This document shows positions 49,950 to 57,022 of a DNA stretch of 64,000 nucleotides, one piece after another. This DNA comes from Comamonadaceae bacterium OS-1. GTDB lineage: Bacteria; Pseudomonadota; Gammaproteobacteria; Burkholderiales; Burkholderiaceae_C. A program made the position numbers and the translations under genes. The stretch is taken from assembly GCA_027923965.1 (NCBI GenBank), contig AP026969.1, positions 2,480,001 through 2,544,000 of the forward strand, written 5' to 3'. The notes under the pieces were generated by a model. It did not search any database. It was not told where the DNA came from and worked only from the letters and a program-made list of their open reading frames with translations. The stretch's first letter is position 1, and each line of letters begins with the position of its first letter.

Positions 49950-51053
49950 TTAAAACAAACTCTCCTGCCCCGACAGCAGACCGGGTCGGAACTGCCCCAC
50001 GTCCAAGTCCACCCGTTCCCGGTTCAGGCCCAGCTTGGCGCAGGACTTGTGGAAGCGCTGACGCAGCAGGTCGGCCCACAGGCCGCTGCCTTTCATGCGG
50101 GTGGCGAAGTCGGCGTTGTAGTCTTTGCCGCCGCGCATGTCGTGGATGCGCGCCATCACCCGGTCGGCGCGCTGCGGGTAGTGCAGCTCCAGCCACTGGC
50201 GAAACAGCGGGGCCACCTCCCAGGGCAGGCGCAGCACGGTGTAGAAGGCAGTGCGGGCACCGGCCTCATAGGCGGCGGCCAGCACCTGCTCCATGTCGTC
50301 GTTGATGAACGGAATCTGCGGCCCTACGCTCACGCCCACCGGCACACCCGCATCGGCCAGGGCGCGGATGCTGCGCAGGCGGCGGTGCGGTGCAGCGGCG
50401 CGCGGCTCCAGCGTGCGGGCCAATGCAGCATCCAGCGTGGTGAGGGTCACGTACACCGCTGCCAGATTACGCGCCGCCATGGGCGCCAGCAGGTCCAGGT
50501 CGCGCTCCACCCCGCTGCCCTTGGTCACCAGCGCCAGCGGGTGGTGGCAGCGGTGCGCCACGGCGATGGCGCTGCGGGTCAGGCGCAGCTCACGCTCGAT
50601 GGGCTGGTAGCCGTCGGTCACCGTGCCCAGGGCCAGCATCTGCGGCACATAACGGGGGGCGGCGAGTTCGCGCGCCAGCACCTCGGCCAGGTTGCGCTTG
50701 GCGATGATCTTGGTTTCAAAGTCCAACCCGGGCGACAGGTTCAGGTAGCTGTGCGTGGGCCGGGCGTAGCAGTAGATGCATCCGTGTTCGCAACCCCGGT
50801 AGGGGTTCAGGCCGTAGTCGAAGTAGATATCGGGCGAGTCGTTGCGGGTGATGGCGCTGTGCGCGTCTTCAAAAATAACCTGCGTGGCCAGGGGCGCGCG
50901 CGGCTCGGTGCCTTCCAGCGTGCCCCAGCCGTCGTCGAACGCGGCCCGGTCTTCGCTGCTGAAGCGGTGCGCCAGGTGCGTGGCTGTGCCCCGGCCTTTG
51001 ATGGCGGTGATGGGGATGACCGTCTCGGGGATGGGGATGACCTTATCGGTCAT
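49950..51053 (-). CDS. PA0069-family radical SAM protein
   Basis: A 367-residue radical SAM protein with the cluster motif GCEHGCIYCYAR and the preceding FDYGLNPYRG. HDMRGGKDYNADFATRMKGSG near the C-terminus is typical of the PA0069/spore photoproduct lyase-like family. The function is not established in the family. The N-terminus has an odd near-duplication (VIPIPETVIPITAIKG). The gene has normal chromosomal composition and marks the outer edge of the AT-rich island. Confidence 0.88.
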   Translation of the reverse strand: MTDKVIPIPETVIPITAIKGRGTATHLAHRFSSEDRAAFDDGWGTLEGTEPRAPLATQVIFEDAHSAITRNDSPDIYFDYGLNPYRGCEHGCIYCYARPTHSYLNLSPGLDFETKIIAKRNLAEVLARELAAPRYVPQMLALGTVTDGYQPIERELRLTRSAIAVAHRCHHPLALVTKGSGVERDLDLLAPMAARNLAAVYVTLTTLDAALARTLEPRAAAPHRRLRSIRALADAGVPVGVSVGPQIPFINDDMEQVLAAAYEAGARTAFYTVLRLPWEVAPLFRQWLELHYPQRADRVMARIHDMRGGKDYNADFATRMKGSGLWADLLRQRFHKSCAKLGLNRERVDLDVGQFRPGLLSGQESLF

Positions 51054-51078
51054 GCCCGCCCCTGCAGGTGTTTTATGA

Positions 51079-51138
51079 ACAAAATAGGCCTCCAGCGCTT
51101 ATTCCATCAGCGCAACAAGCTATTTATTCAATAGCAAT
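51079..51138 (+). repeat. Dispersed two-hairpin repeat (reference copy)
   Basis: Contains AGGCCTCCAGCGCTTATTCC, ATCAGCGCAACAAGCTATTT and ATTCAATAGCAA. It has two hairpins: GCGCT/AGCGC and GCTATT/AATAGC. It lies beside the truncated prpE copy, as 54983-55042 lies beside the intact gene. Confidence 0.88.
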
Positions 51139-51162
51139 ATACTGGTTAAGTATCCAGTATAT
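51137..51162. terminator. Hairpin downstream of the prpE fragment
   Basis: ATATACTGG and CCAGTATAT form a 9-bp stem around an 8-base loop. It lacks a clear T run, so termination is uncertain. Confidence 0.35.
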
Positions 51163-51170
51163 TGCAAGCC

Positions 51171-51457
51171 CTACCGTTTGCCAACCAGCTCCTTGATCTG
51201 CTGCAGGGCCGACGGGTCGTCCATGGTGGTCAGGTCGCCGGGGTCGCGGCCTTCGCACACGGCTTGCACGGCGCGGCGCAGCAGTTTGCCGCTGCGGGTT
51301 TTGGGCAACACGCTAACGAAGGTGACGCGGGCCGGGCGGGCCACGGCCCCGAGGTCCTTGTCGACGATGCGCATCACCTCGGCCTCCACCTGGGCGCGGG
51401 CGGCATCGTCGTTCAGCAGGCTGGCATCCTTGACCACGGCAAACGCCATGGCCACCT
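51171..51457 (-). pseudogene. Truncated duplicate of the prpE 3' end
   Basis: It encodes about the last 95 residues of PrpE (from GQVAMAF-like AMAFAVVKDASLLNDD to ALQQIKELVGKR) and then breaks abruptly at GCCACCT, beyond which similarity to prpE is lost. It matches the intact gene at 55075-55361 with scattered differences: AQVEAEV versus AQLEAEV, VGKR versus VAAR at the end, and several silent changes. It has no promoter or adenylation core. Together with intact prpE it brackets the AT-rich island. Confidence 0.92.
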
Positions 51458-51596
51458 ACCACATGATTGAGCGAAACACCACCTGCGTGGCAAATGCGTC
51501 GAACGCTCTAAGGATTTATTTTCGTAACCACTAACAGCTAAGGACAAACTGGCCGTCTTCATTCGGATATGCGTAAAAAAATCCACATTACGCAAA

Positions 51597-52496
51597 TCAA
51601 CGAATAGCAGGCGAGTTTCCGGTAGCGGCAAACACTTCACGAGCAAAAACTGGGGTCAATTCATCAATTTCATCATTGCCGAGTTCAACAAAATTCCATA
51701 GATAAACGATATTATCAAGAGTTAGTGGAAGCTTTGGTGCCAATTTAGCCAAATTTCTAAACAAACTCGACCTATTTATTCTAAAAAGACCTTTAGCCAA
51801 AATTTTATTACTATCAAGTATATTACACAACGATTCTGAAAGACGGGAGTTCACTCGCATTCTCAAAGCACTATGAAGCATTGCTTCCCAATGGCCATTT
51901 TTATAATGATGATATGCAAGATCATCAAATATTTTCCGCATACTCCACTCGGCCGTCTCCAATGTCGCAACAACACCGTTGAGATTTCTGCTCAAAGAAT
52001 CATTATCCATCCAATCATCAGGACGCTTATATCGCAAATCGTGTTCAACCTCGTGCCACCCTTCAGAAAGAATTGTTCTTAATTGAACTTCAAATGTTGC
52101 ATCTACTGGTGCCGCCATTGTTGGAGTCGGCATTTCTCGCATCCAAGGAATAGGAACTTTGAAAATTAAATTATGCCGTGTAACTGAAAAAACCGATGCA
52201 TCAGGAATATCAATCGTGCAGGCATCTTCGTCACATTGATAAATCTTCCTCAAAAGCTCCTCAACAATATAAATATCCTCTGGAAAATACACAATAACTC
52301 GAACGCCAACCGCATCCTGAATCATCTTCCCAGAAGGAGAATATTTTCCATTGCTTTTATCAATTTTATTTTTAAAAGATAATGGATCCTTCCCTCTTGC
52401 AAAAACTCTACACAATATTCCAACGCTCCCCAATAATTCTTGAATAGAACGCCTTAATTCCTCAGCAACCCTAATGTATGGTGCAGTATTTATCAT
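51597..52496 (-). CDS. RelA/SpoT-domain nucleotidyltransferase (alarmone synthetase-like), second gene of the island operon
   Basis: A 299-residue protein with a single RelA/SpoT synthetase domain (about residues 28-160) and no HD hydrolase. Key positions are recognisable: ARGKDPLSFKNKI (Arg34, Lys36, Lys42-type basic loop), MIQDAVGVRVIVYF with Asp61, and FEVQLRTILSEGWHEVEHDLRYK-like segment with Glu136 and His152. The catalytic site therefore appears complete. The C-terminal half (160-299) is helical and unassigned. Such enzymes transfer pyrophosphate to GDP/GTP, to other nucleotides, or to tRNA in toxic relatives. The ATG overlaps the upstream NTPase stop (ATGA). As part of this pair it is probably the effector that halts growth (inference). 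Confidence 0.85.
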   Translation of the reverse strand: MINTAPYIRVAEELRRSIQELLGSVGILCRVFARGKDPLSFKNKIDKSNGKYSPSGKMIQDAVGVRVIVYFPEDIYIVEELLRKIYQCDEDACTIDIPDASVFSVTRHNLIFKVPIPWMREMPTPTMAAPVDATFEVQLRTILSEGWHEVEHDLRYKRPDDWMDNDSLSRNLNGVVATLETAEWSMRKIFDDLAYHHYKNGHWEAMLHSALRMRVNSRLSESLCNILDSNKILAKGLFRINRSSLFRNLAKLAPKLPLTLDNIVYLWNFVELGNDEIDELTPVFAREVFAATGNSPAIR

Positions 52497-54619
52497 AGCG
52501 CATCTGATAATATTTCTTGCGCGCTAGAAATAAACTCGCTTCGGAGCGAGATCATTCCGGACTTATTTGTTTCAAATAGTATGCCTTGCTTGATTAATCG
52601 TTCAACACACTGATACAACTCCATCGAAGTAAAATCTGCATTTGAATGGCAAAGTGAGTCCATGGGTTTGTACATTGGTCTTGATGGTTTTTGATTAAAG
52701 TTTTCACCAATTGGCCAAAATCTTTTAAGAATTGCCTGATTCACTAAACGCAAAGGATCAGGCAAAGATTGACTGCTTTTCTGCTCTCCAATCGGAGCAA
52801 GAAAATTACTTATATCCGGAAAACTTGTCCCGCCGAGAATATAAACAGCACCACCACCCACCTCCGGAGAGACTTCGCAATCATATATTTTACAATTTAA
52901 AAATGTTACATCATCCAAATTCACAGGATGGAAAATACATCTTCGAAATGTACATTCATTAAATAAAAAACTTTTAATTAACTCATGCCCAATTTCAAGA
53001 TCAACTAAATTTAAACCTTCCGCTTCCGCCTCATTCAAACCGGAAGGGAGACAATGAATCAACTCAGAAGTTATTTCAATCTGCTCAGTGGCATCAAGAA
53101 ATGGCAGAGATTCTTTTAGACTGTTAAACAGTTGCCTTCTAGATGTTTCCGATCTAGGAGAGTAAGAGCGAACTGCGGGATCAATAAATCTTGGATCATC
53201 TCCCATCCAATCTTTTGCAACAAGAATATTAGCAGCCACATAATTTCCAAGAGCAAATTCATTGATGAATCCAATTTTATTTGGATCTTGTGCACTTCTA
53301 TCAAGAAGTGCATGACTAGCCAACTTATTTGCAATCTCTTCTCGACTTGGACGATCAGTAGCAGCATACTGAACTCTTGTAAAATCTATCGCCTTAGCCT
53401 GGTCGGTTAATAAGTATTTAACAATATAATCTCGATGTTCAGCGGTATATCCAATTGCCATCATATTTTTCGCAATCGCGCTTAAAATTTCCGCCTGTTC
53501 GTTCACACTCATCCTCAAATCTTGACGCTCCCTTTCTCGCTCCAACATATATTCAAAATAACTTTCAACAATTGCCTCTGGATGCAAAATCGCACTATCA
53601 AAGGTTAGCTCATCAATGCAACGCAAATATGACAATAGAACTGGGTTTGCCATCGCATCCATTCGCAGACCAGCTGAAGTCAATCGTGTTAATCGATCAG
53701 TTTTTAGCCAATCACTTACTTTTGGCTCTTGTATGCGAATGCGAACCACAGCAAATGACTCAGCATGCCTTTCGAGCCACTGATGGAATTCATCCCCATC
53801 AAATAGCACGGTTCGCCTCGTTGTAATAATAACTTTTGCACGTCCAGTTAGAAGCTCGCTGACCGTTTCAAGCATAGGTTCTTTGTTTTCAAATGCTCCT
53901 GTCTCATCATTTTTCCTCAAAAGTTCATCAAACCCATCTAGAATTGTTGCAACACGCCCATTTTTTATTTCTGTCTGAACCAAACTCGAACTAAGCAAAG
54001 GAAAACTTCTATCAATTTCGTCAAGCAAAATATAACGAAAAATGCGAGCCTGTCTATTTTTCGATAACTCCGCATATAAAGGCAAGTGCGCTTGATCATT
54101 TGCCAAAAGATTAACAATTTCAAGGGCCGTGCAAGTTTTTCCGAATCCAGCAGCAGCCTCAATTAGAAAAAGTATTGGCCCCAATTCGTCCATGCGACTT
54201 AGAACCTCTTCGGGAACGGTTAATACCCCATCTTTTCCATTAATTTGATATGGTGCATTTATATATGTATAACTTGCAGTCGGGCCATAAGGCGCAACGA
54301 GACTGCCCGAGAATTTTTTATAATCCTCTTGGAGTCGCTGCCTTGTGGAATCGACAGAGAAAAATCCCCTAAATAACTCTGCTTCAGTAACTTCTGGGGA
54401 GGTTACCAATCGTACTGTGCATGCGTATCCTAAGCTCGTAAATTCGTTAAAAACATTATCGGTATCAGAATTATCCCAAAGCTTAACTATTTCCGCATTA
54501 TCAAAATATCCGGTTTTTATCGTAAACACCAAAAAACCATCACTCGCATTATCTTTAACAAGATGAAATCCGTATCTACGATAAACATCGACTAGTTTTG
54601 GTTTAAGTGCGATATCCAA
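52493..54619 (-). CDS. NACHT-like STAND NTPase with pentapeptide-like C-terminal region, first gene of the island operon
   Basis: A 708-residue NTPase. Residues 1-125 form an unassigned N-terminal domain. The NTPase core has Walker A EAAAGFGKT (about 155-162), Walker B TILDGFDEL (225-233, with the DGxDE form typical of NACHT) and an ITTRRT sensor (265-270). A helical region follows, and residues 551-582 (FLFNECTFRRCIFHPVNLDD onward) show a five-residue periodicity like pentapeptide repeats. The start is TTG at 54619, supported by GGGAGAG just upstream; no ATG lies nearby. STAND NTPases in bacteria often sense phage proteins and activate an effector; here the effector candidate is the coupled RelA/SpoT protein. 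AT-rich composition unlike its neighbours. Confidence 0.85.
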   Translation of the reverse strand: MDIALKPKLVDVYRRYGFHLVKDNASDGFLVFTIKTGYFDNAEIVKLWDNSDTDNVFNEFTSLGYACTVRLVTSPEVTEAELFRGFFSVDSTRQRLQEDYKKFSGSLVAPYGPTASYTYINAPYQINGKDGVLTVPEEVLSRMDELGPILFLIEAAAGFGKTCTALEIVNLLANDQAHLPLYAELSKNRQARIFRYILLDEIDRSFPLLSSSLVQTEIKNGRVATILDGFDELLRKNDETGAFENKEPMLETVSELLTGRAKVIITTRRTVLFDGDEFHQWLERHAESFAVVRIRIQEPKVSDWLKTDRLTRLTSAGLRMDAMANPVLLSYLRCIDELTFDSAILHPEAIVESYFEYMLERERERQDLRMSVNEQAEILSAIAKNMMAIGYTAEHRDYIVKYLLTDQAKAIDFTRVQYAATDRPSREEIANKLASHALLDRSAQDPNKIGFINEFALGNYVAANILVAKDWMGDDPRFIDPAVRSYSPRSETSRRQLFNSLKESLPFLDATEQIEITSELIHCLPSGLNEAEAEGLNLVDLEIGHELIKSFLFNECTFRRCIFHPVNLDDVTFLNCKIYDCEVSPEVGGGAVYILGGTSFPDISNFLAPIGEQKSSQSLPDPLRLVNQAILKRFWPIGENFNQKPSRPMYKPMDSLCHSNADFTSMELYQCVERLIKQGILFETNKSGMISLRSEFISSAQEILSDAL

Positions 54620-55074
54620 TTTCTCTCCCGTGGGTTTGAAGCAAATGCCTTATGTGGCGGGCGACAGGTGCATTAGTGCAAACACACATGTTTGGGCACG
54701 CGTGACCCAGATGTATGTCAATACCCGGCACCTAATGTTACAGATAGTATCAAGCACAAACCATTGTTTGACACACAACATTTAGTGGCGTGAATTTGAT
54801 CCCAAGAAATTCTAGGCATGACGGCACTGTCCCTTCACGTACTTCTGCCATCGTCAAGCAAAGCATGCTCAGGACCTCAACATTGAGGTGATGTGCTGGA
54901 GGCATAACGGCACTCCGGCCGTTGATGCTGTTACAGAGATATCGGTGGCCCGTAACGCCAACCACCGAGGGGTCGAGATCTATGAAAAATAGGTTTTAGC
55001 GCTTATTTATCAAGCGTTCATAGCTATATTTTTAGTAGCTAAATGTACATAAGCATCCAACAATTTGCATAGCC
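54620..55074. other. 455-base leader/boundary region of the island
   Basis: No gene is convincing. Short direct repeats GGCATGACGGCACT / GGCATAACGGCACT occur at about 54815 and 54900. A plus-strand frame ending ...GVEIYEK-stop (about 54815-54989) and a minus-strand frame both look too short and featureless to call. The NACHT promoter should lie near 54640-54780. A dispersed repeat closes the region. Confidence 0.5.
54983..55042 (+). repeat. Dispersed two-hairpin repeat beside intact prpE
   Basis: Contains ATAGGTTTTAGCGCTTATTT, ATCAAGCGTTCATAGCTATA and TTTTTAGTAGC. It occupies the same position relative to prpE as 51079-51138 relative to the prpE fragment. Confidence 0.8.
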
Positions 55075-56973
55075 CTACCTAGCGGCAACCAGCTCCTTGA
55101 TCTGCTGCAGGGCCGACGGGTCGTCCATGGTGGTGAGGTCGCCGGGGTCGCGGCCTTCGCACACGGCTTGCACGGCGCGGCGCAGCAGTTTGCCGCTGCG
55201 GGTTTTGGGCAGCACGCTGACGAAGGTGACGCGGGCCGGGCGGGCCACGGCCCCCAGGTCTTTGTCAACGATGCGCATTACCTCGGCCTCTAACTGTGCG
55301 CGGGCGGCATCGTCGTTGAGCAGGCTGGCATCTTTGACCACGGCAAACGCCATGGCCACCTGGCCCTTGAGCGCGTCGGCCACGCCCACCACCGCCACCT
55401 CGGAGATATTCGGGTGGGCGGCAATGCTTTCTTCGATCTCGCGGGTGCCCAGGCGGTGCCCGGCCACGTTGATCACGTCGTCGGTACGGCCCAGGATGAA
55501 GAAATAGCCGTCGGCATCGCGCACACCCCAGTCAAAGGTGCTGTAGACCATTTTGCCGGGCACGCTGGACCAGTAGGTTTGCACAAAGCGGGCATCGTCG
55601 CGCCACACGGTTTGCAGGCAGCCGGGGGGCAGCGGGCCTTCGATGGCGACCACGCCCTTCTGGTTGGGGCCGGTGAGTTCTTCGCCAGTGGCGTCGTCCA
55701 GCAGCTTGACGTTGTAGCCGTACACCGCCTTGCCCGGCGAGCCAAACTTGGTGGGGGCCGACTCCACGCCGTTGCACAGGGCCAGGATGGGCCAGCCGGT
55801 TTCGGTCTGCCAGTAGTTGTCGATGATGGGTTTGCCCAGGGCCTGGCTGATCCAGGTGGCGGTGGGCTCGTCCAGCGGCTCCCCGGCCAAAAACAGCGCG
55901 CGCAGGCTGGACAGGTCGTACTTCGCCATCAGCGCCGGGTCTTGCTTCTTGAGCACCCGCACGGCGGTGGGCGCGCTGAACATCACCGTGGCCTGGTACT
56001 TCTCGACCAGGCTCCACCAGATGCCGCCGTCGGGCCGGGTGGGCAGGCCCTCGTACAAAATAGTGGCCATGCCGCCGATCAGCGGGCCGTAGATGATGTA
56101 GCTGTGGCCCACCACCCAGCCGATGTCGCTGGTGCAAAAAAAGGTTTCGCCCGGCTTGCCGCCGTAGATGTGCTGGAGGCTGGCGGCCAGCGCCACCGCG
56201 TAGCCGCCGGTGTCGCGCTGCACGCCTTTGGGCTTGCCGGTGGTGCCGCTGGTGTACAGGGTGTAGCTGGTGTGCGTGGCATCGACCCAGGCGCAGGGGA
56301 CTACCGTTTCCAGGTGTTTTTGCCGCTCTGCGCCCCACAGATGGTCACGACCAGCTACCAGATCCATAGCAACCAGACCCCGATCCACCAGCAGCACAGC
56401 GCCAGGTTTGTGCTTGGACAGGCGAATGGCTTCGTCCAGCAGCGGCTTGTAGGCCACGGCCTTGCCGCCGCGCGAACCGGCATCGGCGCTGACGATCACC
56501 ACCGGCTCGGCGTCTTCGATGCGCGAGGCCAGCGCGCCCGAGGCAAAGCCGCCAAACACCACCGAGTGGATGGCCCCGATGCGGGCGCAGGCCAGCATGG
56601 CAAACGCGGCCTCGGCCACCATCGGCATGTAGACCAGCACACGGTCGCCCTTGGTTACGCCCAGGCCCAGCAGCACGGCGGCCATGCGCTGGACTTCGGC
56701 GTGTAACTGGCGAAAGCTATAAACGGTTTCTTCGCCGGTCTCGGTGGACACAAAAATCAGCGCCCGTTGGTCGGCCCGGTCTGCAAGGTGCCGGTCGACC
56801 GCGTTGTGGCACAGGTTGGTGGTGCCGCCCACGAACCATTTGGCAAACGGCGGATTGCTGTAATCGCACACCTGCTGAGGCGGGGTTTGCCAGTCGATCA
56901 GCTTGGCCTGCTCGCCCCAGAATGCATCGCGCTCGCTGAGGGAGCGTTGGTAAAAGTCTGCATACGCCTGCAT
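55075..56973 (-). CDS. prpE: Propionate-CoA ligase
   Basis: A 632-residue acyl-adenylate synthetase activating propionate to propionyl-CoA. Early residues YADFYQRSLSERDAFWGEQA and SNPPFAKWFVGGTTNLCHNA are PrpE-like. The adenylate motifs are YTSGTTGKPKGVQRDTGG, NYWQTETGWPI, DWGVRDADGYFFILGRTDDV and the acetylatable lysine in PKTRSGKLLRR. ATG at 56973 is chosen since GGAG lies 7 bases upstream; an earlier in-frame ATG at 57006 falls inside a palindromic operator. It is divergent from bktB and shares a control region with it. Its product feeds the propionyl-CoA carboxylase operon at 32-41 kb. Confidence 0.95.
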   Translation of the reverse strand: MQAYADFYQRSLSERDAFWGEQAKLIDWQTPPQQVCDYSNPPFAKWFVGGTTNLCHNAVDRHLADRADQRALIFVSTETGEETVYSFRQLHAEVQRMAAVLLGLGVTKGDRVLVYMPMVAEAAFAMLACARIGAIHSVVFGGFASGALASRIEDAEPVVIVSADAGSRGGKAVAYKPLLDEAIRLSKHKPGAVLLVDRGLVAMDLVAGRDHLWGAERQKHLETVVPCAWVDATHTSYTLYTSGTTGKPKGVQRDTGGYAVALAASLQHIYGGKPGETFFCTSDIGWVVGHSYIIYGPLIGGMATILYEGLPTRPDGGIWWSLVEKYQATVMFSAPTAVRVLKKQDPALMAKYDLSSLRALFLAGEPLDEPTATWISQALGKPIIDNYWQTETGWPILALCNGVESAPTKFGSPGKAVYGYNVKLLDDATGEELTGPNQKGVVAIEGPLPPGCLQTVWRDDARFVQTYWSSVPGKMVYSTFDWGVRDADGYFFILGRTDDVINVAGHRLGTREIEESIAAHPNISEVAVVGVADALKGQVAMAFAVVKDASLLNDDAARAQLEAEVMRIVDKDLGAVARPARVTFVSVLPKTRSGKLLRRAVQAVCEGRDPGDLTTMDDPSALQQIKELVAAR

Positions 56974-56998
56974 ATTTGTCTCCGGTTTGTGTGAATTT

Positions 56999-57022
56999 GC
57001 ATTCATAATTATGAATGCAGAA
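56999..57022. promoter_or_regulatory. Palindromic operator between prpE and bktB
   Basis: GCATTCATAATTATGAATGC is a perfect 20-base palindrome followed by AGAA. It matches 21 of 24 positions at 41077-41100 upstream of mcm/gntR. It lies 26 bases before the prpE ATG and 78 before bktB. Confidence 0.8.

Follow-up and report, generated by a model that had tools for sequence, protein, structure and literature searches.

In the AVAST (Avs) systems, a STAND nucleoside triphosphatase (NTPase) serves as the phage sensor and, in the systems known to us, carries its effector in cis; we know of no synthetase partner for it. The bNACHT proteins of clade 6 (bNACHT25, bNACHT32) and clade 14 (bNACHT02, bNACHT12) are organised around a central NACHT-type P-loop core, with a presumed sensor at the C-terminus and an N-terminal domain of nuclease-like fold, and in bNACHT25 this N-terminal nuclease is required for defence (PMC12169576, partial text). 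CapRel and the toxSAS enzymes possess a synthetase domain of the RelA/SpoT homologue (RSH) type (PMC9712102 and PMC11782079, partial texts). Enzymes of the toxSAS kind are toxic unless inhibited, with a tRNA or ppApp product. The locus described here joins relatives of both kinds. It lies in a stretch of 64,000 nucleotides from Comamonadaceae bacterium OS-1 (contig AP026969.1, positions 2,480,001 to 2,544,000; the window hereafter) and encodes a NACHT-type STAND NTPase, the proposed sensor and switch, and a RelA/SpoT-type small synthetase, the proposed effector. The NTPase appears to have the three-part layout of the bNACHT proteins, its C-terminal sensor being presumed and its N-terminal domain nuclease-like by Pfam name, and the synthetase has the same donor-site residues as CapRel and the toxSAS enzymes. 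The parts are of known kinds, and their combination is not described as far as literature searches reach: no account of a NACHT plus RelA/SpoT pair was found in the openly licensed literature of PubMed Central, where the spelling with a slash is not searchable. We lean towards regarding the pair as a mobile two-gene immune module related to STAND/NLR systems, with the NTPase as switch and the synthetase as an effector acting in trans, a reading that the sequences make fairly probable.

Both genes lie on the minus strand. The NTPase gene (52,493..54,619; TTG start, 708 residues), recognised by its open reading frame (ORF), Pfam and alignments, is joined to the synthetase gene (51,597..52,496; 299 residues; ORF and Pfam) by an ATGA stop/start overlap (52,493..52,496). 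They are the only genes of an AT-rich insert of 3.5 kb, the GC content of the pair being 38.9% versus 64.9% in the remaining window. An initial annotation, made from the letters of the window, had correctly described this two-gene island and its overlap; its right end, then placed at 54,780, is corrected here, the insert running from about 51,458 to 54,980 according to the unoccupied site of a sister species. A single-sequence scan of genomes returned no relative, and one of species genomes that used a synthetase alignment returned 135, of which the best 80 loci were analysed (L053, a fragment, was left out of the tree and of the residue counts). An NTPase relative stands immediately upstream of the synthetase in 57 of these 80 loci, on the same strand in all 57 and in two pieces at four of them. 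With start codons chosen by us, the two genes overlap at 38 of the 57 junctions, and at 55 they overlap or leave a gap of at most 30 bp. The remaining 23 loci comprise 22 solo synthetases, from gut Bacteroidales and Blautia, and one fragment. Paired loci come from isolates of Pseudomonadota, Bacteroidota and Bacillota, and from metagenome bins only in Myxococcota, Cyanobacteriota and Campylobacterota. The possibility, raised in the initial annotation, that the two genes never recur as neighbours elsewhere does not hold, as they do so across several phyla and on many mobile elements.

The two genes also travel together outside the species genomes. In IMG/VR, the synthetase and NTPase scans return the same seven contigs, all of which hold the pair; these amount to about three distinct ones, four being near copies and one apparently the same locus as L010. 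Among these contigs, L115 has its NTPase gene in two frames. In plasmids, a synthetase match covering at least 80% of the protein occurs in six records, the same six that hold the NTPase; the NTPase match is partial in the two from Yersinia. The distance matrices of the two proteins are correlated (r=0.888, n=54; best of 500 permutations 0.105), a value that shared descent alone would also give. The ratio of nonsynonymous to synonymous substitution rates (dN/dS) is 0.036-0.16 in nine gene comparisons with dS up to 1.1, two others having saturated dS and two not being computable; on these ratios, both genes are under purifying selection. The NTPase and the synthetase form a conserved operon that moves as a unit.

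The NTPase starts with an NA-iREase2 domain (PF22723; residues 9-127, 54,239..54,595, E=1.2e-35), which the initial annotation had overlooked while rightly assigning the STAND/NACHT-type motifs. These are a Walker A motif GFGKT (residues 158-162, 54,134..54,148), a Walker B motif DGFDE (residues 228-232, 53,924..53,938) within the stretch LDGFDELL (residues 227-234), and TTRR (residues 266-269, 53,813..53,824). Two alignments were used, a wide one (A4, 63 rows) and a nearer one (A2, 34 rows). In the former, G160, K161 and T162 of Walker A are invariant and G158 nearly so, and DGFDE as well as T266 and R268 are invariant, which bears out the motifs as first pointed out. The NACHT family (PF05729) scores 26.4 bits, just under the Pfam cut-off of 26.7, and 16.8-21.9 bits in six relatives of the NTPase. 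In the wide alignment, none of the Asp, Glu or Lys positions among residues 9-127 is invariant or nearly so, in agreement with the name chosen by the Pfam curators for NA-iREase2, an inactive restriction endonuclease. The Pfam scan of the NTPase finds no effector domain beyond it, and no effector in cis is evident. Conservation is highest in the P-loop core and lowest in the C-terminal third, as would be expected of a sensor end; residues 543-584 show a weak likeness to pentapeptide repeats.

The synthetase matches RelA_SpoT (PF04607, E=5e-14). Its donor-site residues R34, K36, S40 and K44 (52,365..52,397), spaced as R64, K66, S70 and K74 of FaRel2, occur in 80 of 80 sequences, the window's included, and so do Asp61 (52,314..52,316), assigned to metal binding by likeness to D90 of FaRel2, and the catalytic E136-x-Q138-x-R140 (52,077..52,091). 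The earlier claim of intact catalytic positions is right for Asp61 and Glu136; it fails at the G-loop. There, toxSAS enzymes have a Tyr for the acceptor base, replaced here by Phe103 in an altered F103-x-x-x-R107-x-N109 loop (52,170..52,190), with F103 and N109 found in 80 of 80 sequences and R107 in 79. No Tyr occurs at residues 97-103 in any of the 80, and some have one at 108; Phe103 was placed at the G-loop Tyr position by HMMER alignments. Because of this replacement, the acceptor is uncertain. The structure model displays a helical region of about 100 residues after residue 199, and the synthetase is not the single-domain protein it had been taken for. In a structure search with this model, RelQ and RelP lead and toxSAS enzymes rank lower, an order that does not settle the substrate. 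CapRel has a fused pseudo-zinc-finger sensor domain; its structure 7ztb aligns over model residues 1-184 only, the C-terminal 100 residues not having been searched alone. With the YjbM equivalog model, the synthetase scores 30.8 bits where 320 are required, and NCBIfam matches all stay below their cut-offs.

The long helix 166-199 ends in Y195-x-x-Y198 (51,903..51,914), a candidate latch or site of contact with the NTPase. This YxxY is present in 55 of 58 paired enzymes, in 10 of 10 solo enzymes from Blautia and in none of 12 from Bacteroidales. Among the 51 columns conserved in at least 90% of the paired enzymes, three, Y195, Y198 and R212, are kept by no more than 30% of the solo enzymes from Bacteroidales; a thinned set adds K199 and W203 as differing columns. 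The Blautia solo enzymes retain Y195, Y198 and R212 and have lost F71 and E151, and since this lineage kept YxxY, the link of the motif with pairing is not general. Blocking of the donor site by a YXXY motif of the inhibitory domain is described for CapRel and ATfaRel2 (PMC9712102, PMC11782079, partial texts). Here YxxY is located in the enzyme itself, and the likeness may be due to chance.

Beyond a conserved mobile operon with an intact-looking enzyme and an NTPase, we infer. The NTPase would both sense and switch: its C-terminal part would be the target of a phage product, or of some host process disturbed by the phage, and ATP binding would make the protein oligomerise. The N-terminal domain resembles a dead nuclease, and for this reason no output is expected in cis; the assembled NTPase may instead bind and activate the separate synthetase, otherwise inactive or harmless, with YxxY as a putative point of contact or latch. 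The synthetase would move pyrophosphate from ATP onto an acceptor, either a purine nucleotide or the 3' end of a tRNA, and the resulting stop of growth or translation would block phage production. The initial annotation had already suggested a sensor and a switched-on synthetase; the anatomy fits, the E. coli variants described below disfavour an antitoxin role of the NTPase, and the acceptor is the part that the G-loop makes uncertain. A broader proposal has, in our estimate, an even chance: that the pair represents a widespread, undescribed NLR-type branch in which the NACHT protein lost its nuclease output and activates in trans a new subfamily of RSH enzymes, marked by the altered acceptor loop F-x-x-x-R-x-N and a conserved YxxY contact, so that phage sensing leads to a stringent-type or tRNA-blocking shutdown, with prophages, plasmids, islands and integrons as the vehicles of its spread.

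Wherever more than 5 kb of flank is available (49 loci), the pair is richer in AT than its surroundings, without exception and by a median of 12.7 points, and its settings are diverse. In two virus-like contigs, one of them with an integrase, a CI-like repressor (PHROG 4, E ~1e-50) stands directly ahead of the pair. The slot behind a CI-type repressor is the usual seat of lysogenic morons, and CapRel, like the pair, is carried on prophages. In L010 and L112, a Zot-like gene of the filamentous-phage type lies about 2.7 kb upstream of the pair. Locus L014 (L014:1-20840) is an array of the chromosomal-integron type with 15 attC-like sites, as detected with a loose pattern, and the pair sits exactly between two of them; this pattern occurs 0 to 3 times in seven other loci and 0.17 times on average in shuffles, and the same genome encodes an integron integrase (410 bits) on another contig. 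A 3.6-kb block is 93.6% identical between two Pseudomonas loci whose flanks are unrelated, and its right end recurs in an Undibacterium bin (95.9%). By eye, in the printed ends, an inverted motif of about 25 bp seems to open and close the block at L015, L016 and L017, and is a possible mobilisation signal. A scan of five loci against Rfam found nothing.

In E. coli, 66 of 5426 complete genomes, about 1%, carry the pair (54 with a match that covers at least 80% of the length; 67 in distant mode). In the four carriers whose surroundings were read, its site is an ssrA island that also holds integrase and relaxase genes. Within this island (L150-L153), the stretch from the pair to ssrA contains two ParB-like genes, a serine-type recombinase and an integrase; a broken DUF4928 gene lies on the far side of the pair. 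The version of the pair found on a Klebsiella plasmid has no match in E. coli.

Gene neighbourhoods were compared between 134 ORFs flanking 39 of the 57 paired loci and 124 control ORFs taken elsewhere in these genomes (16 stretches); near copies (L016, L017, L022, L042, L049) were dropped, and later loci were left out for size. By Pfam, the flanking set holds three type I specificity, four ResIII, two SWI2/SNF2, four phage-integrase and two rve members, and the control set none of these families with two or more members, its single-member families not all being listed. The PADLOC families matched number 313 in the flanking set, led by three specificity subunits, versus 86 in the control. This comparison is no more than suggestive. 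Enrichment in classical defence islands, proposed as a check in the initial annotation, is weak, the excess over the control being slight and known defence genes near the pair few.

How these observations bear on the alternatives can be seen first in E. coli. The overlapping two-gene layout, and the occurrence of toxSAS enzymes in such pairs (PMC11782079, partial text), recall a toxin-antitoxin pair in which the NTPase would restrain a constitutively toxic synthetase. In five E. coli strains examined, however, the NTPase is cut, frameshifted or split by an insertion sequence and the 301-residue synthetase is full length, four of these synthetases being identical to, and one differing at a single position from, the allele next to a whole NTPase. 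The reverse, a whole NTPase with a broken or shortened synthetase, is found in two strains; both genes are affected in three, one has the pair whole and one more has the synthetase tail only. By annotation names in 60 listed E. coli rows, many of them clonal, 16 have a broken NTPase and an intact synthetase versus 5 the other way round. An obligate antitoxin role of the NTPase is disfavoured by these natural variants, with the caveat that loss of the promoter or of translational coupling could silence an intact synthetase. The NTPase is moreover far bigger than known antitoxins. In 14 of 14 solo-synthetase genomes searched, there is no full-length NTPase relative, three giving a weak hit to the pentapeptide-like stretch only, and this too speaks against the antitoxin role, which we regard as very unlikely. 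Hardly likely at all is a catalytically dead synthetase acting as a binding scaffold: the G-loop Tyr is Phe throughout, but the donor and catalytic residues checked are invariant and dN/dS is low.

Two other readings were considered. The pair could be a mobile stress or maintenance regulator, the STAND NTPase adjusting an alarmone synthetase in response to a signal from host or plasmid. Solo synthetases occupy apparent housekeeping sites in Bacteroidales and Blautia (e.g. L051, L056, L058, L066, L067; L045, L046, L057, L064, L065), in Blautia and Bacteroidales next to rplM-type and tatC-type genes by eye; the synthetase fold is closest to housekeeping RelQ/RelP, and many of the 20 paired loci listed sit singly amid ordinary-looking genes, again by eye. 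An immune sensor is nevertheless a better fit to the patchy carriage (virus-like contigs, plasmids, an integron array, an island) and to the C-terminal third of the NTPase being its least conserved part, and a regulator without a defence role appears rather unlikely. The order of the two steps could also be reversed, with the synthetase as the sensor-side enzyme making a nucleotide signal and the NTPase as receptor and effector. Other defence systems use nucleotide second messengers to activate partners, no result here orders the two steps, and the nearer alignment shows K35, D40 and E79 in the N-terminal domain as nearly invariant, so that this domain may not be dead. The absence of such residues from the wide alignment and the verdict of the Pfam curators speak against a reversed order, as does the synthetase being the only clear enzyme with an output, no other effector domain having been found in the NTPase; we regard it as distinctly unlikely. 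Several observations, together with these three charged residues, weigh against the immune module with its effector in trans that we favour. No PADLOC-DB model fits the pair, and defence and mobility genes are merely slightly commoner in its flanks than in control regions. PF22723 is rare: samples of 200, 398 and 296 genomes yielded it once each, in the genome at the centre of the search. The synthetase can serve without the NTPase, as the 14 solo genomes indicate. Finally, Tyr to Phe in the G-loop is the change used to cripple FaRel2 (PMC11782079, partial text), so the activity or the substrate of the synthetase may differ.

In the source genome, the whole insert (51,458..54,980) is bordered by an imperfect 384-bp direct repeat made of the 3' end of a gene at 55,075-57,006, which we take to be acyl-CoA-synthetase-like, and of the spacer downstream of it. 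The genome of a sister species of the same genus (G607) is continuous across the site, with one repeat copy and no insert. The left copy (51,074..51,457), the displaced 3' end and spacer, is identical to the sister's single copy at 361 of 384 positions, and the right copy (54,981..55,361), now the working 3' end of the gene, at 347 of 382. Because the left copy is the closer one, the insert seemingly came with a foreign 3' end, as if brought by recombination. No integrase gene is seen inside the insert in the ORF list of the window. Each arm of the duplication also holds one copy of a dispersed intergenic repeat of about 60 bp (window 51,070-51,140 and ~54,985-55,045), which has many relatives, of ~75-93% identity, in this genome and in others of the genus and family. 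Elsewhere in the window, PADLOC viperin (pVip) models match one protein among the 41 ORFs scanned (E=5e-16); the tally does not name it, and it may be, as a guess, the radical-SAM-like protein at 49,953-51,053.

If the proposed mechanism is true, the pair would join NLR-type sensing and alarmone-family enzymes, two bacterial responses hitherto studied apart, and would provide an NLR effector working in trans together with a new RSH subfamily naturally substituted at the presumed holder of the acceptor base. With about 1% of complete E. coli genomes carrying the pair, the question is open to direct test in that species. Among described synthetases, RelQ/SAS1 and RelP/SAS2 share the small alarmone synthetase (SAS) fold of the present enzyme, which differs from them by its G-loop, its C-terminal region and its operon with an NTPase. 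The conflict systems of Kaur et al. 2020 likewise include a RelA-type domain as a proposed effector in a regulated system; in the partial text of PMC7159879, however, this domain is a less frequent part of vWA-MoxR systems and not of a NACHT plus RelA operon. Among the systems close in layout to the NTPase are the bNACHT proteins. Unlike them, the pair is known from sequence alone and its NACHT region scores just below the Pfam cut-off; the nuclease-like domain at the N-terminus of the NTPase looks inactive, and a separate gene encodes the likely effector.

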